A DNA stretch of 64,000 nt, from NCBI RefSeq assembly GCF_008017755.1, contig NZ_VRTS01000001.1:1-64000 (forward strand). Direction: 5' to 3'. Origin of the DNA: Alkalisalibacterium limincola. GTDB lineage: Bacteria; Pseudomonadota; Gammaproteobacteria; Xanthomonadales; Xanthomonadaceae. Below the pieces are notes generated by a model, which was not told the DNA's origin, did not search any database, and worked only from the letters and a program-made list of their open reading frames with translations. The translations under genes and the position numbers were made by a program. Positions 27,331 to 51,298 of this stretch are shown in pieces. The number at the start of each line of letters is the position of its first letter. The first letter of the stretch is position 1.

Positions 27331-27715
27331 AAGAACGACTCCGCGCCAACTCTGCCCCGCACCGAACGCCCGCGCCCGATGCCGTACTCGGCCAGCCCAG
27401 CCGCTTCGACATCCGCCGGCTCGTAGACGTTGCGACCGTCGAACGCCACGCCATCGGCCAGCGCGGCCTTGACTCTGGTGAAGTCCGGGCTGCGGAACTG
27501 CTTCCACTCGGTCACCGTTACCATAGCGTCGGCACCCTGCAGTGCGTCGCCCGCCGAATCGCAGAGCACCAGGTCGTCGCGATCGCCAAAGATCCGACGG
27601 GCCTCGTCCATCGCTTGCGGGTCGTAGGCACGGAGCTGGCGCCCGCTTCCCACAACTGCTGCAGCAGGCGGCGGTTGGAGGCCTCGCGCATGTCAAGGGC
27701 GTGGGGGTTGCGCAT
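27327..27715 (-). pseudogene. 3' remnant of a UDP-glucose 6-dehydrogenase gene
   Basis: Only the last third of a Ugd protein is encoded. The first recognisable codons read NPHALDMREASNRRLLQQLW, equivalent to the NTDDMREAPSRVL region of the intact Ugd at 43.9 kb. At about 27637-27643 the frame changes by one base, and the C-terminal domain continues with LRAYDPQAMDEARR, TVTEWKQFRSPDF and FDGRNVYEP. Nothing upstream of 27715 encodes the NAD domain, because the TviB-type gene ends at 27723. The remnant is too different from the intact gene to be a recent duplicate. It probably marks an old recombination point at the edge of the sugar block. Confidence 0.75.
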
Positions 27716-27722
27716 GGAGGCG

Positions 27723-29015
27723 TTACAGCCGGCCGTCGACGGCATCGCGGGGCAATAGGCACTTCACGTCATACACCACGTTGCCCGCCGCACTGCCGAA
27801 CGCCCGCACACCGTCCCCGCCCAACGTGCGGAACTCGTCATGCCCGACCGCCAGAACGATGGCGTCGTACACGCCCTGCTCCGGCTGGTCGATTGGGCTC
27901 AGGCCGTATTCGTGCCGCGTCTCGTCGGCATCCACCCACGGATCGAACACCTCGACCCGCGCGTTGTAGCTCTGCAGCGCCTGCACGATGTCCGTGACGC
28001 GGGTGTTGCGAAGGTCCGGGCAATTTTCCTTGAAGGCCAGGCCCAGCATCAGGATTCGCGCGCCCACAGGGTTGATGCCCTTGCGCACCATCAGCTTGAT
28101 CACCTGGTCGGCCACATAGGCGCCCATGCCGTCGTTGGTACGCCGTCCCGCCAGGATCACATCCGGATGGTGCCCCACCTCCTGCGCCTTGTGCGTCAGG
28201 TAGTACGGGTCCACGCCAATGCAGTGCCCGCCCACCAGGCCGGGTCGGAACGGCAGAAAGTTCCACTTTGTTCCGGCCGCTTCCAGCACGTCCAGCGTGT
28301 CGATGCCCAGCTTGTTGAACAGGATGGCCAGGTCGTTCACCAGCGCGATATTCAGGTCGCGCTGGGTGTTCTCGATCACCTTGGCGGCCTCGGCCACCTT
28401 GATGCTGGGCGCCTTGTGGGTGCCGGCGGTGATCACGCGGCGGTACAGCGCGTCCACGAAGTCGGCCGCTTCCGGCGTCGAGCCTGAGGTCACCTTCAGG
28501 ATGTTGGTGACGCGGTGTTCCTTGTCGCCGGGGTTGATGCGCTCGGGACTGTAGCCGCAGCTGAAGTCTTCGTTGAACGTCAGGCCCGACTCGCGCTCCA
28601 GCACCGGCACGCACACCTCTTCGGTGGCGCCGGGGTACACGGTGGATTCGTAGATCACCACGTCGCCGCGCTTGAGCGTCTTGCCGATCGTCTCGCTGGC
28701 CTTGATCAGCGGGGTCAGGTCGGGCCGCTTGGCGCTGTCGATCGGGGTGGGCACGGTGACGATGTACACGTTGGCTTGGGCCAAGTCGTCGCCGCTAGTG
28801 GTGTAGGTCAGCTGCTTGGCCTGGGCCAGCTCGTCGGGCTCCACTTCCAGGGTGTGGTCCCTGCCCTGCTTGAGCTCATCCACGCGGCCGGTGTTGATGT
28901 CGAAGCCCAGCGTATCGAACTGCTTGCCGAACTCCACCGCCAGCGGCAGGCCGACATAGCCCAGGCCGATGATGGCGATGCGGGTGGTGTCCAGGGTGGG
29001 AAGGGTGGCGCTCAT
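27723..29015 (-). CDS. tviB: TviB/WbpO-type UDP-N-acetylhexosamine 6-dehydrogenase
   Basis: NAD-dependent four-electron dehydrogenase of 430 residues that oxidises C6 of a UDP-HexNAc to the uronic acid. The NAD motif [15 protein letters not shown] starts at residue 16. [19 protein letters not shown] lies near residue 120, [19 protein letters not shown] near residue 210, and the active-site cysteine is in [14 protein letters not shown] near residue 258. [18 protein letters not shown] and the PTPID loop assign it to the TviB/WbpO group rather than to Ugd. It is the first gene of the 29-kb minus-strand run, so the main promoter of the locus should lie in the 382-base gap upstream. Confidence 0.9.
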
Positions 29016-29397
29016 GTGGGTGGTTTTCCTTTACCGGAAGGCTGGGGCGCCCCAAAGCACGCACGGCGCCGGGGTCGGCGCGAGGGAGGTCTTCGGGACG
29101 CGCTTGGCCGCTCAAACGGGCGTTCCAAGGGTCGGGGGACATTCTGACACGTCGATGTGACGTGAACAGCCCGGAAAAAGTCTGGTTTGTGGGCCGGTTC
29201 ACACGGTGCAAGGGAGTTGGCGCGTTATTCGCCGAACTCGGGTAGGCTTCCGCGGCCCCTCCACGGGCGCCCAATCCACTCGACGCGCCTTCTGGGGAGA
29301 ATCAACGCGTTACCGGTTTGCGCGGCCGGTAACGAACCTGCCTTGGATGGTGTCGTAAACTGCCAGGCATCTTTGGGGAACACCGGGGACGCTGTAT
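29016..29397. other. divergent intergenic region between the polysaccharide operon and the propeller genes
   Basis: This 382-base gap separates the minus-strand sugar operon from the plus-strand propeller genes and must contain promoters for both. Weak AGGA-like sequence precedes the TviB-type start on the minus strand, and GGGGA lies about nine bases before the plus-strand ATG at 29398. A perfect inverted repeat is listed separately. I could not find a convincing sigma-70 pair or a JUMPstart (ops) element by eye, and no small gene is apparent. Confidence 0.6.
29308..29334. promoter_or_regulatory. perfect 9-bp inverted repeat, operator or hairpin candidate
   Basis: CGTTACCGG at 29308-29316 and CCGGTAACG at 29326-29334 are exact complements around a nine-base loop. 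The repeat lies in the divergent promoter region, 64 bases before the first propeller gene. No T-tract follows on either strand, so a regulator site or an mRNA leader hairpin is more likely than a terminator. Confidence 0.45.
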
Positions 29398-31791
29398 ATG
29401 AACGCATGGACTCGCGGGGCCGCCACGCGCGGCGGTTGCTTCATCGGGCTGTTGGGTGTGCTGCTGGTGGCCGGCACCGCACAGGCCCAGCGCATGGACC
29501 GGTCGGCGCCGCACGGCGACGCGAGCGAGCGTGCCGCCGGGCCGCAGCCGCAGGAGACGGAAACCACCCCCTGGCAGGGTGTGTCGCTGTGGCGCGGTGA
29601 AGGCATGGCGGTGGCGCTGAGCCCCACGCTGCCCGGCTGGGCCGCCGCCACGGTGGACCACCAGCTGGCCTGGGACCAGCACGCGGCGGTGTATTTCTCC
29701 GACGACTTCGGCGCCCAGTGGGACTGGGCCCGTATCAACGACCAGCGCGGCACCCCCAGCCCGGGCGCCCTGCACTTCCTGCCCAACGGCCGGCTGGTGT
29801 CCGGCGGCGTCGGCGTGGTGAATCGCAAGACCTCGCCCTCCTCAACCTGGAGCGGCTCGGGGATCGGCTTCCAGGACAGCCATGCCCATCAGATCGCCTC
29901 CTCCCGCGTGGACGGCACGCCGCTGATCGTGGCGGTGCGCGCCGCCCACGGCTGGCCGGGCGGCATCGTGCGCGGCGGGCAGTTCGGCATCGGCTTCATC
30001 GACATCACCCCGACCGGTTTCGACGATCACGACGGCACTGCGGTGGCGATGCATGCCACCAATATCGACCGCATGGCCGCGGCGCTGGTGTCGCCCCTCG
30101 GCGTGGTGTCGGTGATGCAGTCGCTGGACGGCGGCGGCAGCTGGCAGAACCTGACTTCGGGCCTGCCGGCCGGGGGCCAGGTGACGGCGCTGACCTATGT
30201 GGGTGACCGGCTGCTGGCGGCCGTGGACGGCCGCGGCGTGTACTCGCGCGCCTCCGGCGCGGGCACGGCCTGGACGCAGGTGGGCGGTGCTTCGGCGGTG
30301 CTGCACCGGGTGCACCGGCTGCATGTGGCCCACGCCAACCCGCAGCGCGTGTTCGCCGCCACCGCCAGTGGGCTCAGCACCAGCCACGACGGCGGGCTGA
30401 GCTGGCGCCACGCGGCCATCGGCACGGCCGGGCTGGACGTGCGCGGCGTGGACACCACGCCGCTGGATCCGGACCTGGTGCTGCTGGCCGTGGCCGGCGT
30501 GGGCACGATGGCCTCGGTCGATGGCGGGGCCAGCTTCGAGGCCAACGCGCAGGGCATCGCCGACGCGGTGGTGGACCAGGTGGCCGCGCATCCCACGCGA
30601 CCGCTGCAGCTGGCGGCCACGGTGCAGCACAACGGGCGCTGGCGCCTGGTGGAAAGCTTTGATGGTGGCGAGGGCTGGGTGATGGCGCGCGGGGCGCCGG
30701 GCGATATCGCGCAGCTGTGGTTCGATCCGGAAGGGGGTCTGTGGGCCACCACGCACGGCCCCGACGACGCCCGGCCGCTGCACCGGCGCCTGGCCTCGGG
30801 ACAGTGGCGGCGGGTGGAGCTGCATTCCCTGCACGCGGTGCACACCCTCGCCTTCGATCCGGGCACGCCGGGGCTGGTGTGGGCCGGCGGCGTGGGCTCG
30901 GTGCACGGGATGAGACGCGCAGTGACGTGGAGCAGCACCGACGGCGGCGACGCCTGGTGGCTGGAGTGGATCGGGCCGGCGTTCCATGCCGTGGCCAGCA
31001 TCGGCCTGATGCCCGGCACCTCGGGCCAGCAGTTGCTGGTGTCCACCCGCAACCTGGGCGGGGGCATGCCGGCCCAGTTGCGGATCTCGCTCAATGGCGG
31101 GGGTGGATACCAGAGCATCGAGGGCACGCCGGCCGGTGACTGGTCGTCCATCGAGATGTGCACGCACGCGGGCAACGGCGGCACGGCGGTGCTGCACTTC
31201 CGCATGGAGCCGGACGGCGAGCCGCCCTACACGCTGCGCGGCCAGGACCTGGAGCAGATCGCCAGTGGCGGCGAGTGGGTCTATGAAGGAGGCCTCTACC
31301 AGGGCCTGCTGGGGGCGCCGGTGTGCCACCAGGAAGGCGACACGCTGCAGGTGTACACGCTGCTGGAAGGGTCGAACGACAGCGGCATGGTGGTCTTGCG
31401 CCCGACGTCCGCCGGCAACCTGGCCGCCTACGGCGAGTGGGACTTCGACGCCAAGCGGCCCTCCCGGGCCCATGCGCTGGCCTTCAACGATTCCGGCGTC
31501 TACCTGGCCAGCAACCGCGGGCTGTTCCGCAATACCGCGCCGGTGCAGGCCGATGCGCCGCAGTTCACCAACGCCAGCTCGGTCGACGGCCGCGCCCAGC
31601 GCATCGTCAGCCTGGCCTGGACCGCGGGCGGCGAGTGGGTCGACGTGCTGCGCGATGGCGAAGTGGTGGCCTCGCTGCGCAACAGCGGCAGCTTCTCCGA
31701 GCGCCTGCTGCGCGATGGCAGTGCGCCGGAATACCAGGTGTGCAATCGGTTTGGTGAGGGCTGCAGCGAGACGGTGACGCTGGCGCCCTGA
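29398..31791 (+). CDS. exported Asp-box (BNR) propeller protein, paralog 1
   Basis: Protein of 797 residues with an N-terminal signal peptide (positive start, hydrophobic core around residues 14-26, AQA-QR cleavage site). The body consists of propeller blades with Asp-box type motifs: SLDGGGSW near residue 241, SHDGGLSW near 329, SVDGGASF near 373, SFDGGEGW near 420 and STDGGDAW near 513. The last 80 residues form a fibronectin-III-like domain with DVLRDGEVV, SFSERLLRDGS and a Cys pair in YQVCNRFGEGCS. Sialidases and VPS10/photosystem-assembly-type propellers share this repeat, but the catalytic Arg triad of sialidases is not evident, so binding or scaffolding is more likely. It heads the five-paralog array and is most like paralog 3. 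Confidence 0.82.
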   Translation: MNAWTRGAATRGGCFIGLLGVLLVAGTAQAQRMDRSAPHGDASERAAGPQPQETETTPWQGVSLWRGEGMAVALSPTLPGWAAATVDHQLAWDQHAAVYFSDDFGAQWDWARINDQRGTPSPGALHFLPNGRLVSGGVGVVNRKTSPSSTWSGSGIGFQDSHAHQIASSRVDGTPLIVAVRAAHGWPGGIVRGGQFGIGFIDITPTGFDDHDGTAVAMHATNIDRMAAALVSPLGVVSVMQSLDGGGSWQNLTSGLPAGGQVTALTYVGDRLLAAVDGRGVYSRASGAGTAWTQVGGASAVLHRVHRLHVAHANPQRVFAATASGLSTSHDGGLSWRHAAIGTAGLDVRGVDTTPLDPDLVLLAVAGVGTMASVDGGASFEANAQGIADAVVDQVAAHPTRPLQLAATVQHNGRWRLVESFDGGEGWVMARGAPGDIAQLWFDPEGGLWATTHGPDDARPLHRRLASGQWRRVELHSLHAVHTLAFDPGTPGLVWAGGVGSVHGMRRAVTWSSTDGGDAWWLEWIGPAFHAVASIGLMPGTSGQQLLVSTRNLGGGMPAQLRISLNGGGGYQSIEGTPAGDWSSIEMCTHAGNGGTAVLHFRMEPDGEPPYTLRGQDLEQIASGGEWVYEGGLYQGLLGAPVCHQEGDTLQVYTLLEGSNDSGMVVLRPTSAGNLAAYGEWDFDAKRPSRAHALAFNDSGVYLASNRGLFRNTAPVQADAPQFTNASSVDGRAQRIVSLAWTAGGEWVDVLRDGEVVASLRNSGSFSERLLRDGSAPEYQVCNRFGEGCSETVTLAP

Positions 31792-31808
31792 GCGTCGGCG
31801 ATTTGGCA

Positions 31809-31840
31809 GGAACCCGGCAGCGGGCTACGCTCCGGGTTCC
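31809..31840 (+). terminator. 9-bp hairpin between propeller genes 1 and 2
   Basis: GGAACCCGG (31809-31817) pairs exactly with CCGGGTTCC (31832-31840). It begins 18 bases after the stop of gene 1 and ends 26 bases before the start of gene 2. The run after the stem is ATTGGGG rather than T-rich, so it may be a stabilising or attenuating hairpin rather than a full intrinsic terminator. Confidence 0.45.
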
Positions 31841-31866
31841 ATTGGGGAACACAACTGGGGAACACA

Positions 31867-34157
31867 ATGATCACAAGGACGTGGCGCGTCGCCGCGATGG
31901 CGACGCTGGGGATGCTGTGCACGGGGGCGCTTCAGGCGCAGTCGCAGCCGGCACCGGAATGGACCTATCTGGGTGCGGCCCAGCCCGATGTCACCTCGCT
32001 GGTGACCTCACCGACGAACCCCGATTTCGTGCTGGCGCGCGTGAGCCGCGACAGCGCGCTCCCGGTGGCGCGCACTCTGTGGATGTCGCCTGATGGCGGC
32101 ACCAACTGGCGGCCGGTGGAGGACGCCGGCATCTGGTTCGCGGCCAGCTGGCCTTCACCAGCGACGGCCGTGGCCTGGCCGCCGACGAGGGCGTGGTGCA
32201 CATCAGCCAGATGGACGGCCTGTGGTGGCAGCCGTGGGTGCCTGCCCAGCCCTGGATGGTGTTCGAGGACGTATCCGTCGGCGCCGGCGACGTGGTCTAT
32301 GCCACCGCGGCGGAGATGAGCGGCCCGTATCTGCACTGGGGCGTGTACGAGCTCGAGCTGGACGGTGACCAGCTGCATCCGCGCAACCCGCCACTGCCGC
32401 CCGAGCACCAGGGCATCAAGCTGCTGGAGGCCGACCCGGACCAGGCCGGCGTGGTGGTGGCGGTCAGCGACGTGTGGAACAGCCCGTGGCCGCAGGACCC
32501 GCGCCTGTGGGTGAGCACCGACGGTGGCCTGTCGTGGTCGGACCGCACCGCCACGATGCCCTCGCGCGAACTCTCCAGTCTGAGCTTCACCGACACCGGC
32601 TGGCTGGCGACCTTCACCTTCGACAACACCGGCGGCGAGCCGGGCGTGTACCGCAGCCTGGACCAGGGCCAGAGCTGGATCGCACTGGCACCGTACCTGC
32701 CTGACCTGGCCACCGACGCCGCGCAGGACCCCACCGATCCGCAGCGGCTGGTGGTGACGGGCGAGGACGGTCTGCACCTGAGCGAGGACGGCGGCTTGAA
32801 TTGGCAGTCCGGCATGGCCGGCACCACCGGGCGCCATTTCTCCAGCGTGCAGTTCGCGCCGGGCGGCGGCGTGTACGTCACCGAGTTCCTGCAAGGCGGC
32901 CTGTTCCATGCCGATGCCTCGCTGCACACACTGCAGCGCATCGCCCCGCAGCTCGGGGCGATGGCCACCACGTCGGTGGCGATCAATCCGGCGGACCCGG
33001 TCGATGTGGCGGCGCTGGGCCACACCAGCATGTACAGCGTTGCCACGTCCGGGGATGGCGGCCTGACATGGGGGCCCGGGGGCGTGGCGCCCTACCATGC
33101 GCGCCAGGTGCGCTTCGGACCCGACGGACGCCTGTACCTGGCCGGTCGCAACCACAACAGCTCGCTGTTGGTGCGTGACGCCGACGGCAACTGGAGCGGA
33201 CTGATGCCACACGTGGGCACCCTCTCCGACCTGCACTCGCTGGCCTTTGGCGCCAGCGCGCAGCACATGCTGGTGTCGGCAAGGATTTCGACGGGCTCGG
33301 GTTCCGAGAACCAGATCCGCCGCAGCACCGATGGCGGTGCGACGTGGTCGGTGGTGCATGCATCGTCGACGCCAGCGCGCGACGTGAGCGTGGTGCTCAA
33401 TGGCTCCGGGCCGTCGGGTGGACGCTTCCTGACGCTGCTGGCCGACACCGTGCTGCACGATCCGATGCTGGTGCTGAGCACCGATGGCGGGCAGGTCTGG
33501 AACCCGGCGCGCGGGCTGCCCCAGGGGCTGCGGGGTGCGCAGGTGTGCACCACCGGTGCCGGTGCCCCGCGGGCCTACCTGGCCGCGCGCGAAAACAACC
33601 AGCAGCGCCTGTTCCGCAGCAGCGACGACGGTCTGACCTGGCAGCCCACCGCATGGCAGCCCGGCTGGCCGGGCGCGCACATCGGCCGGGTGACGGCCCT
33701 GCGGTGCGACCCGGACCGGGCCGACGTGGTGGTGATGGGCGGCGAGTACGGCACCGTGCTGCGCTCGACCGACGCCGGCGACAGCTTCGCGCTGCTGGGC
33801 GACGACCTGGCCCAACGCACCCATCGGATCAATGACTTCGCGGCCTCGCCGGCGGGGCTGCTGTATGCCGCCACCAATGAAGGCAGCTGGGCGGTGGAGC
33901 TGCCCGACGATGCGCCTGTCGGCCCCGGCAACTTGGTGGTGACCGCCACCGGTTCGCACGCCCGCCCCTGGATGACGCTGGAATGGGACGGTGGCCAGGA
34001 GCAGGTGATGGTGCGCCGCAATGGCGCGCTGCTGGCCGTGGTTGCGAACACCGGCAGCTTCCAGGACCGCCCCGCCCCGCGCGACATGCCCGCCAGCTAC
34101 CAGGTGTGCAACGCCGATGGCAGCCACTGTACGGGGGCGGCTGCGGCACGCCGCTGA
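31867..34157 (+). pseudogene. exported Asp-box propeller protein, paralog 2, single frameshift
   Basis: The ATG at 31867 follows the site GGGGAACACA and starts a signal peptide ending ALQAQS; then WTYLGAAQPDVTSLV, the family N-terminus. At about 32142-32145 the frame changes within GCGGCC, and the protein continues with QLAFTSDGRGLAADEG and VVHISQMDGLWW to the stop at 34157. Adding one base gives about 763 residues. Asp boxes include STDGGLSW, SEDGGLNW, STDGGATW, STDGGQVW and SSDDGLTW. The C-terminal domain ends with YQVCNADGSHCTG, the family Cys pair. No other stop breaks the second frame, so the lesion is a single indel, natural or technical. Confidence 0.75.
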
Positions 34158-34174
34158 CGACTTGGGCACGCGCA

Positions 34175-34205
34175 AGGAATGGCCCCGTGCATGCGGGCCA
34201 TTCCT
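34175..34205 (+). terminator. 11-bp hairpin after propeller gene 2
   Basis: AGGAATGGCCC (34175-34185) and GGGCCATTCCT (34195-34205) form a perfect stem with a nine-base loop, 18 bases after the stop of gene 2. It is strong enough to terminate or to protect the 3' end of the mRNA, although only a short pyrimidine run follows. The remaining 150 bases before gene 3 hold no other clear signal. Confidence 0.55.
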
Positions 34206-34354
34206 CTGCCGCACGCGGAAAGGGCGGCGCACCCGCGCGCCCGCCGGAACTGGAAAATTTCTGGTTTGGGCGCTGGATCCCACCCATGACGACACCCCTC
34301 GGGTAAGGTGCCCTGCGGGCCGACATGAGCCCGGGACATTCATAGGGGAACGAC

Positions 34355-36670
34355 ATGCTGGAAGCACTTGCCTTGGCCACGATCCTGGGCGGATCGGGAC
34401 TCGTCTCAGAACCAAGGCAGGCTTCGCCGCGTCCGGTTCCCGCGGAAGCCGCATTGGCGGACTCACCCGGCTGGGAGACAGGAGGCCTGTCCGGCGGTGA
34501 CGTCACGGCGCTTGCCATTTCCCCCACCGAGCCCGGCGAGGCATTCGCCGCAGTGCGCTGCCTGTTCGTCGACGGCTGCGAACTTCCGGTCTACCGGACT
34601 GCCGACCTGGGGGCGACATGGGACACGTTCCCGACCTGGTTTTATGAGAATTCCCTGTCCAAGCGTGCGGTGGTCACCCAGGAGGGCTACCTGCTGCTGG
34701 CCGACCGATCGGGCGTGCGCTTCCGCCACCCCATTGGGACCTGGTCCAGGGCCATCTTCTATCCCGCGCCCATCCGCTATGGCGAACCGGTCGACCTGGC
34801 CGTTAGCGCGCAGCTGGACGGGCCGGGCATGATCGCAGTCGCCCGCACCGAACTGGGTACCGGTGGCCTGGCCATGGCGAACGCGACGATCGGGATGTAC
34901 CAGGACACCACCCCGGCACCCGCGGTGGGCCTGGACGGGTCCGCCGTGGCCATGCACCCGCAGCTGACCGACAACCGTGCCGCGGCCTTCCGCGGCGCCC
35001 AAGGCAATGCCCGGGTATTCCTCACCAGCGATGGCGGCACCACGTGGCTTGAACGCTCCGCCGGCTTGCCGGCAGCCCCGGTGGCGTCCATGGCCTATCA
35101 GGGCGTGCGCGTGGTGGCGGTCGTCGAGGGCCATGGCGTCTTCGCCATCCAGCCGGGGCAGACCGCCTGGTCGGCGATCACGTCCGCACAGGGCCCACTG
35201 CGCGCGGCCACCCGCATCGTGGTGTCTCCCCACGACACGCAGACCCTTTGGGTGGCCACCCGGGGCGGGCTGAGCCGCAGCCACGATGGCGGCGTGAACT
35301 GGCAGCACCAAGTGCCCGGAACGCGGGGACTGAACGTGCACGACATCGCGCCGAGCCCGACCGACCCCGAGCTGGTGCTGATTGGCACGGCTCATTGGGG
35401 CGTGCTGTCCTCGCTCGACGGCGGGCAATCGTTCGTGCTGTCCACCGACGGCATCCAGAACCTGGACGTGCGTGACGTCGCCGCCGCGCCGAGCGACCCG
35501 CGCCGCATGGCCGCCATCGTGCAGACCACGGCCGCGGCCCGGCTGATGGAGTCCTTCGATGCCGGCACCACCTGGCGGGTGGGTTTCTCCCTGCCCCGCC
35601 ACACCCGTTCGCTGCACTTCGACCACCAGGGTCAGCTGCATGCGCTGGCCCGAGCCAATGCCGGCTCGGCCGCCACGCTGTACCGGCTGCAGGACGGACG
35701 CGCCTGGCAGGCGCTGCGTGCGCCGTTGCGCGGTGCGGACATCCAGGCCGTTCACTTCGACGCAGGCCAGGCCGGTGTCATCCGCGTGGCCGGTGCAGCG
35801 TCGACGGCCCCCGGCGCACGCGCGATGACCTGGAGCAGCCGCAACGGCGGCGTGGATTGGGAACTGGATTGGCAGGGCCCGCAGGACCACGTAGCCACAC
35901 AGATCCTGGGCTTTGCCGATGACAACGGCGATTGGCTGCTGGTGCCCACCGCCAGCCGGGCCGACGCCGCCGGTGTCATCGCCATCAGCCACGACGAGGG
36001 CGCGACCTGGGCCGAAACGATCATGGGTTTCCCGCGCAGGGACCGCCACATCCAGTTGTGCCGCCACGACGGCAGCCAGACCGTGTTCGCCTACACCCGC
36101 AACGTCAACGGCTTCGGTGACCTGTTCACCTATGGCCTGGGGAGTGGCGCCGACGAATGGCAGCACGAGTCGGGAAGCGCGGGCCAGGCCAATGCCGGCT
36201 TTACCTGTGGCGATCCGGCCACCGAGGAGCTTTTCGTGGGCTCCGAGCAGCGCGTCGTCGAGTTCCACGATCCCGTGCTGCGCAAGGTGGCGGGAGAGCA
36301 GTTCGAGGCCTATGACGAGAACTTCCCGCTCAGGCCGCCCCACCGTGCCACGCGAATGATCCTGACCCCGGCCGGCCTGTTCCTGGGCAGCGAGAACGGC
36401 CTGTTCCGAAACCGCGCACCGGTGCACGCGCCCGCGCCGCACTCGCTGCAGGTGAGCGAGCAGCGCAGCCGGATGGCGCGCTCCATCGAGGTGACGTTCC
36501 AGGCGCAAGCGTCCTGGGTGCGGGTGCTGCGCGACGGCGAGGAAGTCTTCGTGGGCCCCAATGCGGGCAGCTTCTCCGAGCGCCGCCTGCTGGACGGATC
36601 CACGCCTGCCTACCAGGTGTGCAATGCGTTCACCGAAGGCTGCAGCGCGCCGGCCACGGCTTCGCGCTGA
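34355..36670 (+). CDS. exported Asp-box propeller protein, paralog 3
   Basis: Protein of 771 residues; the ATG at 34355 follows AGGGGAACGAC, a good ribosome binding site. The N-terminal hydrophobic stretch (LEALALATILGGSGLV) is short for a signal peptide, so export is likely but less certain than for the others. Asp boxes include TSDGGTTW near residue 228, SHDGGVNW near 310, SLDGGQSF near 355, SFDAGTTW near 402 and SHDEGATW near 548. The C-terminal domain matches paralog 1 closely (WVRVLRDGEEVF, SFSERRLLDGS, YQVCNAFTEGCS). The next paralog starts 25 bases after its stop, so the two are probably cotranscribed. Confidence 0.82.
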   Translation: MLEALALATILGGSGLVSEPRQASPRPVPAEAALADSPGWETGGLSGGDVTALAISPTEPGEAFAAVRCLFVDGCELPVYRTADLGATWDTFPTWFYENSLSKRAVVTQEGYLLLADRSGVRFRHPIGTWSRAIFYPAPIRYGEPVDLAVSAQLDGPGMIAVARTELGTGGLAMANATIGMYQDTTPAPAVGLDGSAVAMHPQLTDNRAAAFRGAQGNARVFLTSDGGTTWLERSAGLPAAPVASMAYQGVRVVAVVEGHGVFAIQPGQTAWSAITSAQGPLRAATRIVVSPHDTQTLWVATRGGLSRSHDGGVNWQHQVPGTRGLNVHDIAPSPTDPELVLIGTAHWGVLSSLDGGQSFVLSTDGIQNLDVRDVAAAPSDPRRMAAIVQTTAAARLMESFDAGTTWRVGFSLPRHTRSLHFDHQGQLHALARANAGSAATLYRLQDGRAWQALRAPLRGADIQAVHFDAGQAGVIRVAGAASTAPGARAMTWSSRNGGVDWELDWQGPQDHVATQILGFADDNGDWLLVPTASRADAAGVIAISHDEGATWAETIMGFPRRDRHIQLCRHDGSQTVFAYTRNVNGFGDLFTYGLGSGADEWQHESGSAGQANAGFTCGDPATEELFVGSEQRVVEFHDPVLRKVAGEQFEAYDENFPLRPPHRATRMILTPAGLFLGSENGLFRNRAPVHAPAPHSLQVSEQRSRMARSIEVTFQAQASWVRVLRDGEEVFVGPNAGSFSERRLLDGSTPAYQVCNAFTEGCSAPATASR

Positions 36671-36695
36671 AACCCGAACACTACAGAGACCAACG

Positions 36696-39046
36696 ATGAC
36701 GACATGGATGATGGTGCTGGCCCTGGCCGCCGCAACGGACGGGGCGAATGCCCGCGCACGCCTGGCAGCCGGGCCTGCTGCCCCGCAGGTGGTGGTGGCG
36801 CAGGAGGACACGCCGCGCATGGCCGCGGAAGCTTCGCAGTGGACCTACCTGGGCCCGGACATGGCAACGATCGTCGAATTCGAGATCTCGCCGACGGACC
36901 CGGACCACATGCTGGTCGCAAACACACCGTTCTCCACCATCCCGCACAACAGCCAGATGCTCGAAACACGCTCGGGTGGTGAGCAGTGGCAGCCCATCGA
37001 GCCGCTTCGTGATGTGCAGGGGCTGGTCGGATTCATGGCCGATGGTCGCGCCGTGGTGGCTCGTAACGGCGTGTTTTCACAAGCACCTGGCGCATCCACC
37101 TGGACCCATCACCCCCGTCCCGGCGCGGGAACCGCGTTTTCCACCTATCACATGGCCATCAGCCGCCCTGACGGCACGGTCTGGGTGGCTGGCGAGGAGA
37201 ACTTCCAACTACGCGTGTTCCGCATCGACGACCTCGATGCGACCTGGACCGATGTCACGCCCGCCGGCTCGACCGCGGAGGCGTACACGCAATAGCGCCC
37301 TCGCCCACGACCCCAGGCCTGGTGGCCATGGTGTTCTCAAGGCCGGGACACGACGGCATGCGCACGGCAGTGTCCACGGACGGAGGGAACACCTGGCAGG
37401 AGAACGAGACGGTAACCGGCATCGGGAACACGGACGTGCGCGCCTTCGAGATGCAGGGGGACTCGTTGTATCTGGTTGCGTCCTTCCACACCACCAGCCA
37501 CTCGCTCTACCGCAGCGACGATCTCGGTGCGTCATGGAAGTTCCTGCACTGGGACAGCGGGCCCAGCGCGTTCGATCTCGCCTTCGATCCGCGAGACACT
37601 TCGAGGCTGTGGGTGGCCACGCCGTCCGGCGTGTGGCACAGCACCGACGGTGGCGACACGCTGGAACGAGGCGACCACCGGGTGGTTCGCTCCTCGGCCG
37701 GAAAGGTTGTCTTCGACGCCTCGCGGGAGCGCTTGTGGGTTGCGATCCAGTTCTATGGCGTGTGGATGAGCGAGGACGGTGGCGAGACGTTCGAGCGCCA
37801 CAGCCGAGGCCTCAACACCCTGTCGAGCGCCTCCGTTTCCATTGATCCGCGCGATCCGGCAGGGATCGCGTTGATGATTGCCCGGGAGCCCAACCGGGCC
37901 AAGTACGCGATGACCTCGCCCAACGGCGGGCTGGGTTGGCATCTGCCATTCCATCCAAGCGGTCGGACGGCCACACGCGCCATCTACGGCGACGATGGCG
38001 CGATGTACATGGCCTTCGCCAGTGGCCAGACGCTCAGTGTCTATCGGCGACCAGCCGGCACGTTCTACAACTGGCCAAGGCAGGTCCATGCGTGGGACAG
38101 CGGTGCGGCCTACACGGATGCACTCGACCTCGCCCTGGGGCGCGACCCAGGCACGTTGCTGCTGTCGGCGCGACGCTTCGATGACGAGCTCTCTCCCCGA
38201 GAACCAGGGATCCATCGTTACAATCCAAGCCATGGGGCGTGGTCCCTCGTACTGGAGGGTATGACCGACGGCAGGGGCTTCAACCAACTGGAGCGAATCG
38301 AGACCGCTACGGGCGTACGCCTGCTGGCCCACGAAACCAGCACGCTTGGCCAGGGCCACAGCCGTTTGTTCGGCAGTGACGATGACGGCCTGACCTGGAG
38401 CGGACTGCACGACGGCCTTCCGGCCTGGAATGAAGGCCTGCTCTGCCTGGGCGACGAGGGCCGGGTGAGGCTGTTGCTGGAGGAAGCCGGCGTACCCCGG
38501 CTTTACCGCAGTGAAGACGCCGGTAGCACCTGGTCGCGTAGCGCCTGGACTGCCACGGCACTGCAGGCCGCAGGCACCCCCTTCACCAGCATCCACTGCC
38601 CCGAGGACACTCAACAGGTCTTCCTAGGCGACCAGCAGGGGAATCTGTGGCAGTCGACCGATGGCGGCGACAGCTTCGATGCACTGGTTGGCGACACGGA
38701 AACCTGGGGGCCGGTGGTGCCCAACGACGTCCGGTCCTCCATCGTGGGGCTGTACGTGGCCACCAGCAGCGGCCTGTGGGTGAACACAGCGCTGGCACGC
38801 CCGAGCCAGGCGCCAACGAGCCTGGGCGTGACGATGGAGAGCGGGCGGATGCGCTCCTTGGCCAGGCTGGCCTGGGAGGGCGGCCGCTCTCGCGTGGAGA
38901 TCCGGCGCAATGGCGCGAGCGTCGCCGAGGTGTCCAACACCGGCCGCTTCATCGATTCCATGCTGACACCGCTGCGCCCGCTCGAACTGCAGTGGCAGAT
39001 ATGCAATGCGGGCACCGAGGAGTGTTCGGACGTGGTGTCGCACTGA
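36696..39046 (+). pseudogene. exported Asp-box propeller protein, paralog 4, single frameshift
   Basis: Starts at the ATG at 36696 with a signal-like segment (TTWMMVLALAAATDGANA). The family N-terminus follows as WTYLGPDMATIVEFEISP. At 37288-37291 the frame meets TAG, but one added base restores AIAPSPTTPGLVAMVFSRPG and the protein then runs to 39046, giving about 783 residues. Asp boxes are STDGGNTW, STDGGDTL, SEDGGETF, SDDDGLTW, SEDAGSTW and STDGGDSF. The tail has VEIRRNGASVAEV and WQICNAGTEECSD with the conserved Cys pair. It belongs with paralogs 2 and 5 by its W-x-YLG opening. Confidence 0.75.
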
Positions 39047-39072
39047 CCTGGAAGGCCCGCCGGCCGTGCTCT

Positions 39073-39657
39073 TTAGTCCACGCGGGTCGCCAGGAGGCCG
39101 GGAAGGCTGCGCAGGAACCACGTCTGGGTCGGCACGGCAATGCTCTCGCGATAGAAGCTGTAGGCCAACAGGCCGTGCTCGAGGCTGAAAAAGAAGACGT
39201 TCTCAACACGAGCGTTTCGACTGGCATCAATGATGACCACGTCGAAACCAGCCCCGAGGATTTGCAGATGCGTTTGAGCGCTGGCCGCGTAGCGCCGGCC
39301 ATTGAACTGCCACTCTGCGCCCACCTCGAACCCCTGCCTGGGCACCGCGAACTCCACGTCCTCGAACGCAATGCATTCCAGCGCAGGTTCCTCCGGACAG
39401 CGGCGGAGGGGCTCGACATGACTACCCGAGAAGTATTGCCCCTCCGTCTCGAATACGATGACGCCCAACTTCCCGCCCCATCCCTGACCCGGCAGACCAA
39501 AGGTATCGTAGTGGGCGCGCACTGGCGAAGCCGGCGACATGTCGCCTTCGACCCTGCCGGAGGACTCCCGGTCGGGTGCGTGCGTCAGGCCCGCCGCAGC
39601 GGGAATGTCCGCCACCAGCAACAGAGCCGAAAGAACCAGAAATCCCCAACGCGTCAT
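39073..39657 (-). CDS. small exported protein of unknown function
   Basis: Protein of 194 residues with a clear signal peptide (TRWGFLVLSALLLVADIPAAAG). I do not recognise its family. The mature part is rich in aromatic and acidic residues and includes FGLPGQGWGGKLGVIVFETEG, a pair of cysteines (RRCPEEPALECIAF) that may form a disulphide, and a C-terminal hydrophobic stretch VENVFFFSLEHGLLAYSFY. It lies on the strand opposite to the propeller genes, between paralogs 4 and 5, and its stop is 26 bases from that of paralog 4. Upstream, 188 bases with no obvious feature separate it from the nuclease gene. Confidence 0.7.
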   Translation of the reverse strand: MTRWGFLVLSALLLVADIPAAAGLTHAPDRESSGRVEGDMSPASPVRAHYDTFGLPGQGWGGKLGVIVFETEGQYFSGSHVEPLRRCPEEPALECIAFEDVEFAVPRQGFEVGAEWQFNGRRYAASAQTHLQILGAGFDVVIIDASRNARVENVFFFSLEHGLLAYSFYRESIAVPTQTWFLRSLPGLLATRVD

Positions 39658-39845
39658 AGAGCCCCCGCTTCGTCCTGTGGTCCGACACCCGAGCGCCAGG
39701 GCGCGTCAGGAGCACGCGATCAATCTAGCCTCGCCGTTCAGGGGTTCGCTGGCACCGGCTCGATGACCAGCGCACCGGCTTCCCCTTCTGCCCTGTTCTC
39801 CCTCTGGACCAATCAAAGTATCGGCCGGCTGTTCGGATCCAGACA

Positions 39846-41276
39846 TCAATGGTCCGGCACAATCAAATTACACGACGCGCACTTCTTGCTGTAGCGATTC
39901 CGTAGGGACGCAACCAGCGCCCGCTTCGCCCCCGGGTCGCCGTGCACCACCCGGATCTCGGAAGGCCAACGGCGCATGCCGGTGACGAACTTGAGCAGGC
40001 CCTTCTGGTCGGCGTGCGCGGAATAGCCGCCGATCGTGTCCACGTTGGCGTGGATGTTGAAGCGCTCGCCGTCCAGGTCCACCCAGCCGCCCTGCCCGCG
40101 CTGCTGGATCGCGCGCCCGGGCGTGCCGCGGCCCTGGTAGCCGACGAACAGCACGTCGTGGCGGGCATCGCCCAGCATCGCCTTGAGATGGTTCACGATG
40201 CGGCCGCTGGTGCACATGCCGCTGCCGGCGATGACGATGGCCGGGCGGCCGCTGTGGGCCAGGTGGGTGACCATGCGCTGGTGGTCGGCGTGGCTGTCGA
40301 CGGTGATGAGTTGCTCGAAGGCCAGCGGCCGGCGGCCCTGGCTGACCCGCTTGAGCGCCTCGACATCCCAGAACGGCTTGAGCTCGCGATAGACGCCAGT
40401 GAAGCGGCTGGCCAGCGGTGAGTCCAGCACCACGGGCAGGTTGTCCCAGGCCAGGCCGTCGCGGATCTTCGCGCCGGCGCGGCGGTGGATGATGTCCTCG
40501 AGTTCGTACAGCAGCTCCTGCGTGCGGCCGATGCTGAAGGCCGGCACCATGACCGTGCCCTGGTCCTGCAGGGCGCGCTCGAGCACCGCTTCCAGCCGCT
40601 GGCGTCGCGTGCGGCGGTCTTCGTGGTTGCGGTCGCCATAGGTCGATTCGATGACCAGCGTGTCGCAGCCGTGCGGTGCCTTTGGGGCGGCCAGGATCGG
40701 CGAGTGCGGCGCGCCGAGGTCGCCGGAGAACACGTAGCGGTGGCGGCTGCCATCGGGCGTCGGCGCGTCGACTTCCACGTAGGCCGAACCGAGGATGTGC
40801 CCGGCCGGCTTCAGCCGCACGCGCGCCATCGCCCCGCCCTCGCCCGCCACCTCGTGCCACTTGCCGTAGGGCAGCGCCACGATGCGCTGCTGCACCAGGT
40901 CGACGAAGCGTTCCACCGTGGCGGCCTGGCGCGTGAAGCTGAGCTTGAACGCGTCCTCCAGCACGATCGGCAGCAGCTTGGCCGAGGGTTCGCTGCACAG
41001 GATCGGGCCTTTAAAACCCGCCGCCAGCAGCCACGGGATGCGGCCGACATGGTCGATGTGCACGTGCGTGGCGACGAGCGCACGCAGCGTGGAAATATCG
41101 AAGTCGATCTGCAGCGCATCGGCATTCGCATCACCGCCGGGCGAGCCGTCCTCGCCCTGGAACAGGCCGCAGTCGATCAGCAGGCTGTTGCGCGCGTCGG
41201 TGTGCAGGTGGTGGGCGGAACCGGTAACGCCGCGAACGGCGCCGTGGTGTTGCAGGTGCGGGTACTGCGCGCTCAT
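39846..41276 (-). CDS. metallo-beta-lactamase-fold beta-CASP RNase-like protein
   Basis: Protein of 476 residues with the metallo-beta-lactamase core and an inserted beta-CASP domain. The zinc motif THVHIDHVGR lies near residue 90, the LFSGDLG-type third motif appears as VFSGDLGAPHSP near residue 190, STYGDRNHE follows near residue 215, the GxGMCTSGRI motif is near residue 350, and the C-terminal HADQKGLL motif near residue 420 completes the RMMBL region. These are hallmarks of RNA-processing exonucleases related to CPSF73 and to bacterial YSH1-like proteins. The substrate is not known. It sits alone on the minus strand within the propeller array and is divergent from paralog 5. Confidence 0.88.
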   Translation of the reverse strand: MSAQYPHLQHHGAVRGVTGSAHHLHTDARNSLLIDCGLFQGEDGSPGGDANADALQIDFDISTLRALVATHVHIDHVGRIPWLLAAGFKGPILCSEPSAKLLPIVLEDAFKLSFTRQAATVERFVDLVQQRIVALPYGKWHEVAGEGGAMARVRLKPAGHILGSAYVEVDAPTPDGSRHRYVFSGDLGAPHSPILAAPKAPHGCDTLVIESTYGDRNHEDRRTRRQRLEAVLERALQDQGTVMVPAFSIGRTQELLYELEDIIHRRAGAKIRDGLAWDNLPVVLDSPLASRFTGVYRELKPFWDVEALKRVSQGRRPLAFEQLITVDSHADHQRMVTHLAHSGRPAIVIAGSGMCTSGRIVNHLKAMLGDARHDVLFVGYQGRGTPGRAIQQRGQGGWVDLDGERFNIHANVDTIGGYSAHADQKGLLKFVTGMRRWPSEIRVVHGDPGAKRALVASLRNRYSKKCASCNLIVPDH

Positions 41277-41445
41277 CCGTGAGCCTCCGGTGTGATTCGG
41301 AGGCAGAGGATAGCAGTCACGTAGTCGGGCGCATCGGAAAGATGCTTTTGGCCTTGGGTCAACGAGAAAGATTCAAGGTCTACGTCCCGGTTCGCGCATA
41401 TCGGGCATGGGATGATCTGTTCGATCAAAAACAGGGAATTCCCAC

Positions 41446-43833
41446 GTGCAGTCATCACTCTTTCGCAGGATCCCGACCTTTCTCGTACTTGCAGCTGGAA
41501 CAGCTTTGCTGCTTGGGCCTACGCAGGCGGCGTCCGAGACCGAGAGGCGCTCGAGGTCGATCGAACAAGCAACACCGGCGGTGGAACTCCCGGTGCTTGG
41601 CGACGGTGACAGCTACAGCCCGTGGGTTTACCTGGGACCAGACTATGCCCCGGTTTCCGCGCTCGCTGTTTCACCCCAGAACCCCGAAGCTTTGCTGGCG
41701 TCGATCGATGGGCTGGATGAGATCCCGGTCGCGTACACGGCCTACCTGTCGGTAAACGACGGTGAGGAATGGACGCACACGCCGTTCCGAGCTCCGACAT
41801 TGCATGTGGCCTATACGCCTCAGGGCAACCTGCTGGCGCTGGGCGTCCGAAGGGTTGAGTACAGCGAGGACGGCGGCCAGACCTGGTCGAGTCATTCGAT
41901 GGATCCCATTGGCAGCTTCATGTATCACTACAGCCAGGTCGATTTCCGTGATGACGGACAAGGCGACCTGTGGATTCGGACCGGGCGTTTTCCCGAAAGC
42001 GAAGTCCTACGGGTCGCCCAGGACTTCAGTGAATGGAACGATGTCACGCCCCCGATGCCGGAGGGCTTCTACATCCATCGGATTGCAGTCTCCCATCAGG
42101 AACTGGGAACCGTTGCGGTGGCGGCCACCAGCAACTCTGGCCAACAAACCCGGGTATGGATCACCACCGACGATGGCGCCACTTGGACCATGGGTGGCAG
42201 TGGCCTGCCGCTCGGCAACGTCTCGGACTTGAAATGGCAGAACGGTCGACTGCTTCTTGCCATGGGGCCACGCTGCTGCTCCAGTCACTCCGGCCTCTTC
42301 GCAAGCAACGACGTGGGACTGACTTTTCAAGCCTTGTGGGCGGGCAGCAGTCACGCGCCTGTCAACACCGTGACCTTCGATCCCGACGATGATCGCCGCC
42401 TTTGGATCGCAACCGAGTACGAGGGAATCCACTACAGCGATGACGCCGGCCTGACCTGGGCAGCAGGCATCGGCGGCACGTTCGGACTCCAGATACGGTT
42501 GGTTCATTTCGATCCAGCCACCTCGCGACTGTGGGCGGCCCTCGGAAACGACGGGCTTTTCGTGAGTGAAGACGGTGGCGGCTCGTTCGAACGGCGCAGC
42601 GTGGGGCTCAACGCGCTGCCTGTGACGGATATCGCCTCGGTGGCCGGGGCGCCTCATCGAATGGCGATGTCGGCGGAGTCGACGACGATTGGACGCAGCC
42701 GACTGCTACTTTCGCAAGACGGTGGCGTCTCCTGGGACTTCAAGGATCACGCGTACGAACTGTGGGCAAGTCGTGTGCGGTATGACGCGTCGGGACGACT
42801 CCATGCCACCATGCATACGCTTTCGCGAAATGTGCTGATTCGACGCGAGTTGGATGGCAGTTGGTCGGAGGTTGGGTTTGAATGGCCCTCCGACGAGTTG
42901 GGGAAGGTGGTCGACGTCCACTTCGGTCAGGAGCCTGGAGTGCTCTTGTTGGCTGGCTATCGCCAATCGAACTCACAGCATCCCAGGATGCCTGCCATCT
43001 GGCGTTCGGGTGACGATGGTCTGCGCTGGGAGGCCGTTCTCGAAGGTGATTCCGAATCAGTCCAGATCGATCACCTGGTGAAGCTTTCGTACCCGCGGTT
43101 TACTCGATTCATCGCGCTTGAGAGGTCGAACAGGCCCCTCTCCCCCACCGGGCGGATTGTGTTGAGCAATGACGACGGACGCACTTGGGATGAACCCGCC
43201 GCTGGACCTCCGCCGTTCGTGCACGGAGCCCTGTGTCAAACCGAAGACAATGAGCTCTATCTGATTGCCGACGTTTCCCAGACAACCAAGCTGTTCAGCA
43301 GTTCCGACGGCGGAGTGAGCTGGGTGACCACTGGGTGGAGCCATCCGAATTCGTGGCAGGACGGAGGCCCCTACACTGCTTTGCAATGCGGCGGAGAGCC
43401 CGGGTCGATCGTAGTCGGGAATCGACTTGGTGAGATGCTGCGCTCACTCGATGCTGGCGAGACGTTCCAACCATTTAATCAGGGGCTTGGATTGGTTGGC
43501 GATCAGGTGAACGCGTTGAGGACCACGGAAGCGGGGCTTTACGCAGCAACGGTCAACGGGCTCTGGTTCAACCCAGATGTGCGGTCGGGGCCTGAAAAGC
43601 CACGAATGCTTGAAGCAACGACTCTCCGTTCGCACATGAGATCGCGTGTCGAACTGGCATGGATCGGCGGAGCCAGTTCGGTGGACATTTGGAAGGATGG
43701 CGCACGCGTTGCCACCGTAGAAAACGCTGGACAGTTCCGAACGACTTTGCTCAATCTTGGCGGTAGTGGAACGTCGGCCTGGACTGTGTGCAACGCCGGT
43801 CGCCAGTCCTGCTCCTCGACAGTGACCCACTAG
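41446..43833 (+). CDS. exported Asp-box propeller protein, paralog 5
   Basis: Intact 795-residue member of the array. It starts at a GTG (41446) after AGGGAAT, and the signal peptide core is IPTFLVLAAGTALLLGP, ending TQAAS. The family N-terminus is WVYLGPDYAPVSALAVSP near residue 62. At least eight Asp-box-like motifs are visible: SEDGGQTW, TTDDGATW, SDDAGLTW, SEDGGGSF, SQDGGVSW, SGDDGLRW, SNDDGRTW and SSDGGVSW. A Cys pair in MGPRCCSSHSG near residue 280 is peculiar to this copy. The tail ends with WTVCNAGRQSCSSTV. Its GC content is lower than in the first four copies, so it may have a separate history. Confidence 0.82.
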   Translation: MQSSLFRRIPTFLVLAAGTALLLGPTQAASETERRSRSIEQATPAVELPVLGDGDSYSPWVYLGPDYAPVSALAVSPQNPEALLASIDGLDEIPVAYTAYLSVNDGEEWTHTPFRAPTLHVAYTPQGNLLALGVRRVEYSEDGGQTWSSHSMDPIGSFMYHYSQVDFRDDGQGDLWIRTGRFPESEVLRVAQDFSEWNDVTPPMPEGFYIHRIAVSHQELGTVAVAATSNSGQQTRVWITTDDGATWTMGGSGLPLGNVSDLKWQNGRLLLAMGPRCCSSHSGLFASNDVGLTFQALWAGSSHAPVNTVTFDPDDDRRLWIATEYEGIHYSDDAGLTWAAGIGGTFGLQIRLVHFDPATSRLWAALGNDGLFVSEDGGGSFERRSVGLNALPVTDIASVAGAPHRMAMSAESTTIGRSRLLLSQDGGVSWDFKDHAYELWASRVRYDASGRLHATMHTLSRNVLIRRELDGSWSEVGFEWPSDELGKVVDVHFGQEPGVLLLAGYRQSNSQHPRMPAIWRSGDDGLRWEAVLEGDSESVQIDHLVKLSYPRFTRFIALERSNRPLSPTGRIVLSNDDGRTWDEPAAGPPPFVHGALCQTEDNELYLIADVSQTTKLFSSSDGGVSWVTTGWSHPNSWQDGGPYTALQCGGEPGSIVVGNRLGEMLRSLDAGETFQPFNQGLGLVGDQVNALRTTEAGLYAATVNGLWFNPDVRSGPEKPRMLEATTLRSHMRSRVELAWIGGASSVDIWKDGARVATVENAGQFRTTLLNLGGSGTSAWTVCNAGRQSCSSTVTH

Positions 43834-43858
43834 CGTACCCGGGCGCTGACGGTATGGC

Positions 43859-45277
43859 TCAAGCCCTGTTGAGCCTGACCGGTCGCGACGCGCAGGGCGC
43901 GCCCGCGACCGGTACTCCCGCTGGTGCCTTGGTGCTGACACTGCGCCCTCGGCCAATGCCGTGGTACGCCAACCCGGCGGCCTCGACCTCCCACGGCTCG
44001 AACACGTTGCGCCCGTCGAAGATGACGCGATCGGAGAGCGCAGCGTGCAGGTGGTCGAGCCGCGGGCGCCAGAACTGCTTCCACTCGGTGACCAGCGCGA
44101 GAGCGTTGGCGCCCTCCAGGGCGTCGGCGGCGCTGTTGCACACCTCCACCTGCGGCTCGTCGGCAAACAGGGTCCGTGCGTGGTCGCCGGCCTGGGGATC
44201 GTAGGCGCGCACACGCGCACCTGCGGCCACCAGGCGCTCGATCAGCACCCGGCTGGGCGCCTCGCGCATGTCGTCGGTGTTGGGCTTGAACGCCAGCCCC
44301 CACAGCGCAAAGGTTCGCCCGGCGAGTGCGCCGTCGTAGTGGCGCTGGATGTGCTGGAACAGGCGCGACTTCTGCCGCCGGTTCACGCCGTCCACCGCCG
44401 CCAGCAGGTCGGGCGCGTAGCCGTTGCTGCGTGCCATGTGTGCCAGCGCCTTGACGTCCTTCGGGAAGCACGAGCCGCCGTAGCCCATGCCCGGGTAGAT
44501 GAACTGGTAGCCGATGCGCGGGTCGGAGCCGATGCCGCGGCGCACCGCCTCGACATCCGCCCCCATGCGCTCGGCGATGTTCGCCACCTCGTTCATGAAA
44601 CTGATCTTCGTGGCCAGCATCGCGTTGGCGGCGTACTTGGTCAGTTCGGCCGAGCGCTCGTCCATGACCAGGATGCGCTCGTGCTTGTGGTTGAACGGCG
44701 CGTACAGGCGCTTTAGCGCCGCGGCGGCCAGGCCGCTGCGGGTGCCGAGGATGATGCGGTCGGGCTTCATGCAGTCGGCCACCGCAGCGCCCTCCTTCAG
44801 GAACTCCGGGTTCGACACCACCTCCACGTCGAACACCAACCCGCGCTGGCGCAGGTGGAAGTGGATGACTTCACGCACGCGATCGGCGGTGCCCACCGGC
44901 ACGGTCGACTTGTTCACCACGATCACCGGGTGCGTGACCTGCTGGCCAATCGTGCGCGCCACGTCCAGCACGTGGCCCAGGTCGGCACTGCCGTCCTCGT
45001 TGGGCGGAGTGCCGACGGCGATGAAGACGATGCCGGCGCCTTGCAGCGCCGCGGGGGCGTCGGTGGTGAAGGCCAGCCGCCCCTCGCGCAGGTTGCGCGC
45101 CACCATCGGCGCCAGGCACGGCTCGTGGATCGGGATCTCGCCGCGGCACAGGCCCTCGACCTTTTGCGCATCCACGTCGACGCAGGTGACGTGGTGCCCC
45201 ACCTCGGCCAGGCACGTGCCAGTGACCAGGCCCACGTAGCCGGTTCCAAACAGGGTGACGCCGCTGTGCTGGTCCAT
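43859..45277 (-). CDS. ugd: UDP-glucose 6-dehydrogenase
   Basis: Oxidises UDP-glucose to UDP-glucuronate with two NAD. The protein has 472 residues from the ATG at 45277. The NAD motif FGTGYVGLVTGTCLAEVGH starts at residue 10, NKSTVPVGTADRV lies near residue 122, ANAMLATKISFMNEVA near residue 210, and the active-site cysteine in GMGYGGSCFPKDVKAL near residue 260. The same frame is open far upstream, but that part lies over the next gene and is not family sequence. It is the intact counterpart of the remnant at 27.3 kb. Its stop is 25 bases from the stop of propeller paralog 5. Confidence 0.93.
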   Translation of the reverse strand: MDQHSGVTLFGTGYVGLVTGTCLAEVGHHVTCVDVDAQKVEGLCRGEIPIHEPCLAPMVARNLREGRLAFTTDAPAALQGAGIVFIAVGTPPNEDGSADLGHVLDVARTIGQQVTHPVIVVNKSTVPVGTADRVREVIHFHLRQRGLVFDVEVVSNPEFLKEGAAVADCMKPDRIILGTRSGLAAAALKRLYAPFNHKHERILVMDERSAELTKYAANAMLATKISFMNEVANIAERMGADVEAVRRGIGSDPRIGYQFIYPGMGYGGSCFPKDVKALAHMARSNGYAPDLLAAVDGVNRRQKSRLFQHIQRHYDGALAGRTFALWGLAFKPNTDDMREAPSRVLIERLVAAGARVRAYDPQAGDHARTLFADEPQVEVCNSAADALEGANALALVTEWKQFWRPRLDHLHAALSDRVIFDGRNVFEPWEVEAAGLAYHGIGRGRSVSTKAPAGVPVAGAPCASRPVRLNRA

Positions 45278-51284: not shown

Positions 51285-51298
51285 GTTGGGGGTCCTCA

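Follow-up and report, generated by a model that had tools for sequence, protein, structure and literature searches.

A tandem array of five diverged Asp-box propeller genes with a predicted GH74-like fold beside polysaccharide genes of Alkalisalibacterium limincola

What might a row of five related propeller genes do in a bacterium where it stands among genes for polysaccharide biosynthesis? Such a row lies in the window analysed here, the whole stretch of DNA that comprises bases 1–64000 of contig 11 in the genome of Alkalisalibacterium limincola (3.03 Mb in 20 contigs). It occupies positions 29398–43833 of the plus strand and consists of five paralogous, diverged Asp-box genes (g1–g5), listed below with the features that adjoin or interrupt them:

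747–29015, minus strand: polysaccharide biosynthesis cluster to the left of the array (Pfam)
29398–31791, plus strand: g1 (type A), intact reading frame of 797 amino acids; putative double Asp-box propeller with a Cys-pair tail
31867–34157, plus strand: g2 (type B), architecture as in g1; split by a frameshift (three-frame translation of the DNA)
34355–36670, plus strand: g3 (type A), intact reading frame of 771 amino acids; start uncertain
36696–39046, plus strand: g4 (type B), split by a frameshift (three-frame translation of the DNA)
39073–39657, minus strand: reading frame for a 194-amino-acid protein between g4 and g5; outside the array count
39846–41276, minus strand: beta-CASP/RMMBL metallo-beta-lactamase-fold hydrolase between g4 and g5, interrupting the array (Pfam)
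41446–43833, plus strand: g5 (type B), intact reading frame of 795 amino acids; structure predicted
43859–45277, minus strand: ugd-like gene (UDP-glucose/GDP-mannose dehydrogenase family) directly to the right of the array (Pfam)

The original prediction of five large genes in a single orientation holds for the strand, but only g1, g3, and g5 are intact (771–797 amino acids). Likewise, the five genes are paralogs but do not form a contiguous array; a gap of 2.4 kb that holds two minus-strand genes separates g4 from g5. The 194-amino-acid protein encoded in this gap had no match in Pfam at a threshold of 0.001, and the beta-CASP hydrolase resembles the NCBIfam models for Cas14 and aCPSF1 at scores well below their cut-offs. 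A scan of positions 28900–44000 with Rfam yielded zero matches.

The repeats and the tail that define the family were both borne out. Asp boxes (BNR repeats) of the strict form S-x-D-x-G-x-T-W occur four to nine times per gene, with 5, 7, 4, 6, and 9 boxes in g1 to g5 (those of g2 and g4 counted in a partial frame), against means of 0.01–0.03 and a maximum of 2 in 2000 shuffles of each protein (mean for g1, 0.02); the model of g5 is a propeller. In the tail, for which the pattern VCN-x(4-5)-C had been proposed, C782, N783, and C789 (g5 numbering) are invariant in all five Cys-containing copies. Two other cysteines, Cys 597 and 648 of g5, which are invariant in the five proteins and kept in most relatives, likely form a disulphide. 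The W-x-Y-L-G opening ascribed to the whole array is present in g2, g4, and g5, whereas g1 and g3 begin otherwise. By eye, signal peptides are clear in g1, g2, and g5 and weak in g3 and g4, which makes the start of g3 uncertain; judging from their sequences, the array proteins are probably exported.

The split genes bear on the reading that the array is decaying, its members being frameshifted remnants of a gene duplication that have partly lost their function beside a variable polysaccharide locus. In g2, the two open frames overlap at 32094–32319 (open frame of 687 residues; ORF of 654 amino acids); in g4, the first frame stops at 37295, and the second is open from 37172 and runs to 39046 (open frame of 624 residues; ORF of 574 amino acids). 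The region holds another likely remnant: the stretch at 27367–27549, located between galE and a dehydrogenase gene, shares about 73% identity with the 3′ portion (43944–44126) of the intact ugd-like gene and is probably a truncated ugd copy. By contrast, the longer frames of g2 and g4 score as coding and retain Asp boxes and the tail, and other genes of this assembly are split as well. These include, by eye, tail-bearing genes elsewhere in the genome (L042, L043, and L044) and the single place found for lpxK in the genome, which is on the same contig:

75117–76067 of contig 11 (about 10951–12200 of the fetched region L045): lpxK, pieces in different frames

Because lpxK is expected to be essential and yet is split, the assembly probably carries indels, as far as can be judged from a few split genes, and g2 and g4 are therefore not callable pseudogenes. 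Decay and programmed shifts were both dropped as explanations of the two frameshifts, given that lpxK on the same contig is equally split, and we consider it very unlikely that the array as a whole is a decaying one.

The divergence of the five genes is considerable, with protein identities of 22–35%. In a tree of the five proteins and nine relatives, which has several long end branches, the array falls on one side of a branch supported at 87/89; g1 groups with g3 (100/100), g4 with g5 (95/93), and g2 with the latter pair (83/78). The tree agrees with the two subgroups that had been recognised (1 and 3; 2, 4, and 5), with the placement of g2 the weaker part. In blastn, g1 matched g3 in four pieces at offsets of 4879–4903 bases and g2 matched g4 in two pieces at an offset of 4889. 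The simplest history is probably a duplication of an A–B pair (g1–g2 and g3–g4) followed by one more copy of type B (g5), but equal spacing would also be expected from any A–B–A–B order of genes of similar size. GC3 falls steadily from left to right (0.914, 0.892, 0.850, 0.816, and 0.682 in g1 to g5; g2 and g4 taken from the longer frame), which could reflect separate acquisitions. Synonymous sites are expected to be saturated because protein identity is only 22–35%. Diversifying selection, which had been suggested by the number and divergence of the copies, is not supported; an old duplication would explain the divergence equally well.

The tail domain proved to be common to all five proteins but not specific to the array, since it is also present on exported subtilase-type proteins. 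A tail model of 83 positions, built from the five array tails and four others, recovers array and non-array tails alike: at 1e-5, the genome has 11 copies of the domain, 6 of them outside the array, and the sole non-array protein that was scanned carries Peptidase_S8 and PPC domains. At 1e-10, the domain was found in 12 of 60 relatives (own genome included). Eight of the 12 loci fetched had readable spanning frames, seven of which encode at least two of the three subtilase motifs; the eighth is a fragment from the own genome. The array tails have the VCN-x5-C signature of this subtilase-type C-terminal domain, which follows the peptidase in subtilases of the same order but follows the propellers in the array. 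Because the tail goes with exported proteins in general, it provides no link to polysaccharides. One locus (L042, 3300–8068) comprises two adjoining tail genes, the first subtilase-like and apparently split by a frameshift, the second with Peptidase_S8 and PPC domains.

The closest structural counterparts of the array proteins are found among the endo-xyloglucanases of glycoside hydrolase family GH74, which PMC2716378 classifies as type 3 Asp-box proteins. A model of residues 46–795 of g5, based on an alignment of 21 rows, reached a pLDDT of 85.4 and a pTM of 0.78. In a VIA comparison with 957 chains, the best 18 rows were all GH74 (nine identified by title and nine by E values below 1e-50 to true GH74), with Z scores of 27.0–29.4 and rmsd values of 3.8–4.4 Å over 586–602 residues; XccXeg74 of Xanthomonas (PDB 7kn8) aligned with a Z score of 29.1 and an rmsd of 3.8 Å over 587 residues at 15% identity. 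In rows 19–50 (Z scores of 25.8–26.9), either a single propeller was matched, or both were matched at 4.8 Å or more, as in the non-GH74 chain 9d5n_CH (574 residues aligned at 4.8 Å). Because Z scores do not separate the last of the GH74 rows from rows 19–50, the case for GH74 rests on aligned length and rmsd. Foldseek also ranked GH74 first, with TM-scores to the query of 0.25–0.60 for those rows. The packing depends on the deeper alignment, because an earlier model from five sequences (pLDDT 71.5, pTM 0.57) had an rmsd of about 8 Å to GH74.

The protein encoded by g5 is thus predicted to consist of two tandem Asp-box propellers that face each other across a cleft and are packed as in GH74; the same packing is inferred for g1–g4. 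Asp-box propellers had been anticipated from the repeats; the model of g5 retains them, and its structural matches direct them to the GH74 double propeller. The packing of the model is the same as that of XccXeg74 (7kn8) and Xgh74A (2cn2), but its identity to GH74 in structural alignments is only 13–16%, and the array differs from GH74 in its additional Cys-pair tail and in its tandem arrangement. The sequences are also not collinear: a profile of the five proteins matches Xgh74A in six pieces that are out of order, whereas a true GH74 protein from a relative (L085) is collinear with GH74 over about 690–700 residues. With a GH74 piece as query, a single match was obtained among 149 genomes of the family, and this was not in the own genome.

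The array proteins share Asp-box blades and partial Pfam matches also with Vps10/sortilin and Ycf48-type propellers. Four of the five scored above the cut-off of the Pfam model Sortilin-Vps10, and their tail is common to exported subtilases, which would suit secreted, Vps10-like propellers that bind proteins or peptides, either in adhesion or in partnership with the subtilases that have the same tail. The matches, by contrast, span single stretches and no more than a few blades (the best about 110–120 of the 446 model positions), and Vps10 is one ten-bladed ring (PMC2716378), whereas the g5 model has two rings with a predicted GH74 packing. In the Vps10/sortilin family, 10CC domains follow the ring. 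A Vps10-like role of the array proteins is improbable in our assessment. Sortilin is absent among the best 50 of the 957 VIA rows, which proves nothing by itself, and is ranked lower down by Foldseek.

A GH74-like packing of both propellers, as modeled for g5, would also be expected if the array encoded secreted glycoside hydrolases or lyases, diverged kin of GH74 that trim the polymer of the cell itself or of its food with differing specificities. According to PMC2716378, Vps10 was in 2009 the sole structurally characterised group of Asp-box propellers that is not carbohydrate-active, and all five proteins match the NCBIfam glycosylhydrolase model NF045728, albeit below its cut-off (49.8–94.4 bits; curated cut-off, 175). 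The Asp boxes themselves are silent on catalysis, since PMC2716378 describes them as structural elements for which a role in ligand binding is highly unlikely. Among alignment columns with at least five letters, which exclude the stretches around the frameshifts of g2 and g4, the only acidic residues invariant in the five proteins are the Asp-box residues 242 and 333. As to other Asp-box enzymes, the profile matches of the array to sialidases are weak; GH33 sialidases have an arginine triad, a catalytic Tyr/Glu pair and Asp, and a six-bladed ring.

The residues at the candidate catalytic positions vary among the five proteins. In the segment A-R-x-D-[IV]-G-G of GH74, chains 2cn2 and 2cn3 differ by D to A, which is taken as a catalytic mutant that marks the N-terminal acid of GH74. 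With the residue register to GH74 set by hand (the profile alignment of hhalign was judged out of register), the first candidate column reads D, D, R, T, and S in g5, g1, g3, g4, and g2, and the second reads E, E, G, Q, and Q in g5, g4, g2, g3, and g1, so that the two catalytic acids are not conserved across the five proteins in this register. The protein of g5 alone carries acids at both hand-aligned places (D88 and E411), near the catalytic acids of GH74, and the E at position 411 is also found in g4 and two homologues. Most of the 13 homologues with a letter in these columns have A at the first (10/13) and Q at the second (10/13; E in 2/13).

A GH74 mechanism common to all five proteins is unlikely, because no acid outside the Asp boxes is invariant where they could be compared. 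Together with the homologues found elsewhere, which are single genes beside which visual inspection revealed no polysaccharide cluster, this weakens the original prediction that the proteins trim the neighboring polymer, although the GH74 fold is in its favor. The lack of collinearity with GH74 also speaks against a set of hydrolases or lyases, which we regard as rather unlikely overall. We favor ligand binding over hydrolysis by a common mechanism; an enzyme is most conceivable in the case of g5. The homologues from other bacteria keep acidic residues that are missing from the array, perhaps because the wider family consists of enzymes and the array has lost this activity.

Few homologues of the propellers were found among related bacteria. 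When g1 and g5 were used as queries in the own genome, only the tail and not the propeller was found outside the array. At 1e-10, g5 matched 5 of 60 relatives, the own genome included, of which one other (G048) matched by its propeller and three by the tail alone. The family profile matched 2 of 247 genomes of the family at 1e-20 (the second match being partial), 7 of 398 genomes of the order at 1e-25, and only the own genome among 369 genomes of the class at 1e-40. These profile searches scored the best four (family) or two (order and class) candidates per genome, so that weak arrays could escape, and the relatives searched all belong to other genera than that of the array. A scan of the contig collection with g5 gave 11 pattern matches but no relative, and plasmids gave one partial match at 27.5% identity.

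A scan of the same collection with six homologues from the order recovered 14 loci. These include loci of Dokdonella, which NCBI assigns to the same order as Xanthomonas, of an uncultured member of the Rhodanobacteraceae, and of MAGs that carry the labels Acidobacteria, Verrucomicrobia, Planctomycetota, Phycisphaerae, and Pseudomonadota. Together with nine regions found earlier, they make up 23 loci at 18 distinct places (five contigs recur), and each of these places has one long propeller gene within a stretch of 4.4 to 22 kb. One locus (L036, identical to L054) has an additional short propeller-like match on the opposite strand, and in L033 and L062 the propellers belong to proteins longer than 2200 residues.

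Like the array proteins, the single propellers of Dokdonella and the soil MAGs (L033–L039 and L050–L061) are exported double propellers, and those of L033–L040 align with the array in BLASTP over 356–710 columns at about 25–33% identity. Six aligned homologues open with W-x-x-[LF]-G-P, like g4 and g5, and end in FA[DN]GF[DE], where the array has the subtilase-type domain instead. They also differ in gene number: the array has five propeller genes and each of the other places a single long one. The original reading knew of no described system with this layout; such an array was not met at any of the 18 places, and the literature matches listed include no report of one. In the Dokdonella-type loci L033–L036 and L050, the propeller gene adjoins, by eye, a gene for a large protein of the winged-helix/TPR type; the one neighbor scanned with Pfam (L034) has a winged-helix DNA-binding domain at its N-terminus and TPR repeats. 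The propeller gene and this neighbor are possibly a regulatory pair.

The array of A. limincola has polysaccharide genes on both sides, in agreement with the original prediction. The minus-strand cluster to the left encodes a manC-type mannose-1-phosphate guanylyltransferase, epimerases, aminotransferases, glycosyltransferases, a flippase-type protein, and a nucleotide-sugar dehydrogenase. To the right, the ugd-like gene, which has a match in 34 of the 36 genomes searched (own included), is joined by genes for RNase-H-type, HRQ1-type helicase, and collagen/DUF7151 proteins and a glutamate-synthase-domain protein, with glycosyltransferase-4 and O-antigen-ligase genes further right. The region at 49467–52051 encodes two adjoining proteins with collagen-like repeats and DUF7151. 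Because they are on opposite strands, the array and the adjoining polysaccharide genes have no common transcript. Four regions around the helicase gene and four around ugd were read in relatives; helicase and ugd are not adjacent in any of them, and the right-hand junction is therefore not conserved there. Its absence says nothing about function.

A link between the propellers and the polymer made next door thus has the adjoining genes in its favor but not the homologues elsewhere, which are single genes without a recognised cluster. At 16 of the 18 distinct places (all except L051 and L055), visual inspection of the protein starts revealed no polysaccharide cluster, with a sparse listing for L053 and several loci that are short or cut, and conservation was rejected as an argument for the link. 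The neighboring polysaccharide genes may supply the ligand of the propellers, a lead that is based on their position.

Taken together, the evidence gives about an even chance that the array is a lineage-restricted tandem expansion of secreted double propellers that bind ligands and are perhaps directed at glycans. Each protein would consist of two Asp-box propellers face to face, followed by a small domain with two cysteines, and the present set would have arisen when the A–B pair of genes was duplicated to g1–g2 and g3–g4 and a further B copy became g5. As extracellular binding proteins, they would hold an extended ligand, i.e., a polysaccharide or another surface polymer, in the groove between the propellers, and each copy would be tuned differently, rather than all five being hydrolases with one mechanism; the ligand may be provided by the adjoining polysaccharide genes. 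A more specific version, in which the proteins are catalytically silent, GH74-shaped receptors whose grooves match the surface polysaccharide encoded next to them or that of competitors, so that repertoire and polymer co-vary, is a long shot.

The array looks like a local expansion and not like a new type of system. Its structural kind is known, and what is new is the arrangement, in which double propellers shaped like GH74 have diverged, carry a tail of the subtilase type, and stand in tandem. It represents a family of GH74-like double propellers that has seemingly parted from the chemistry of GH74 and has multiplied beside genes for cell-surface polysaccharides. If the copies bind glycans, they would offer a case, open to testing, in which a scaffold with the shape of an enzyme became a binding repertoire; otherwise, they would represent a local expansion of paralogs.
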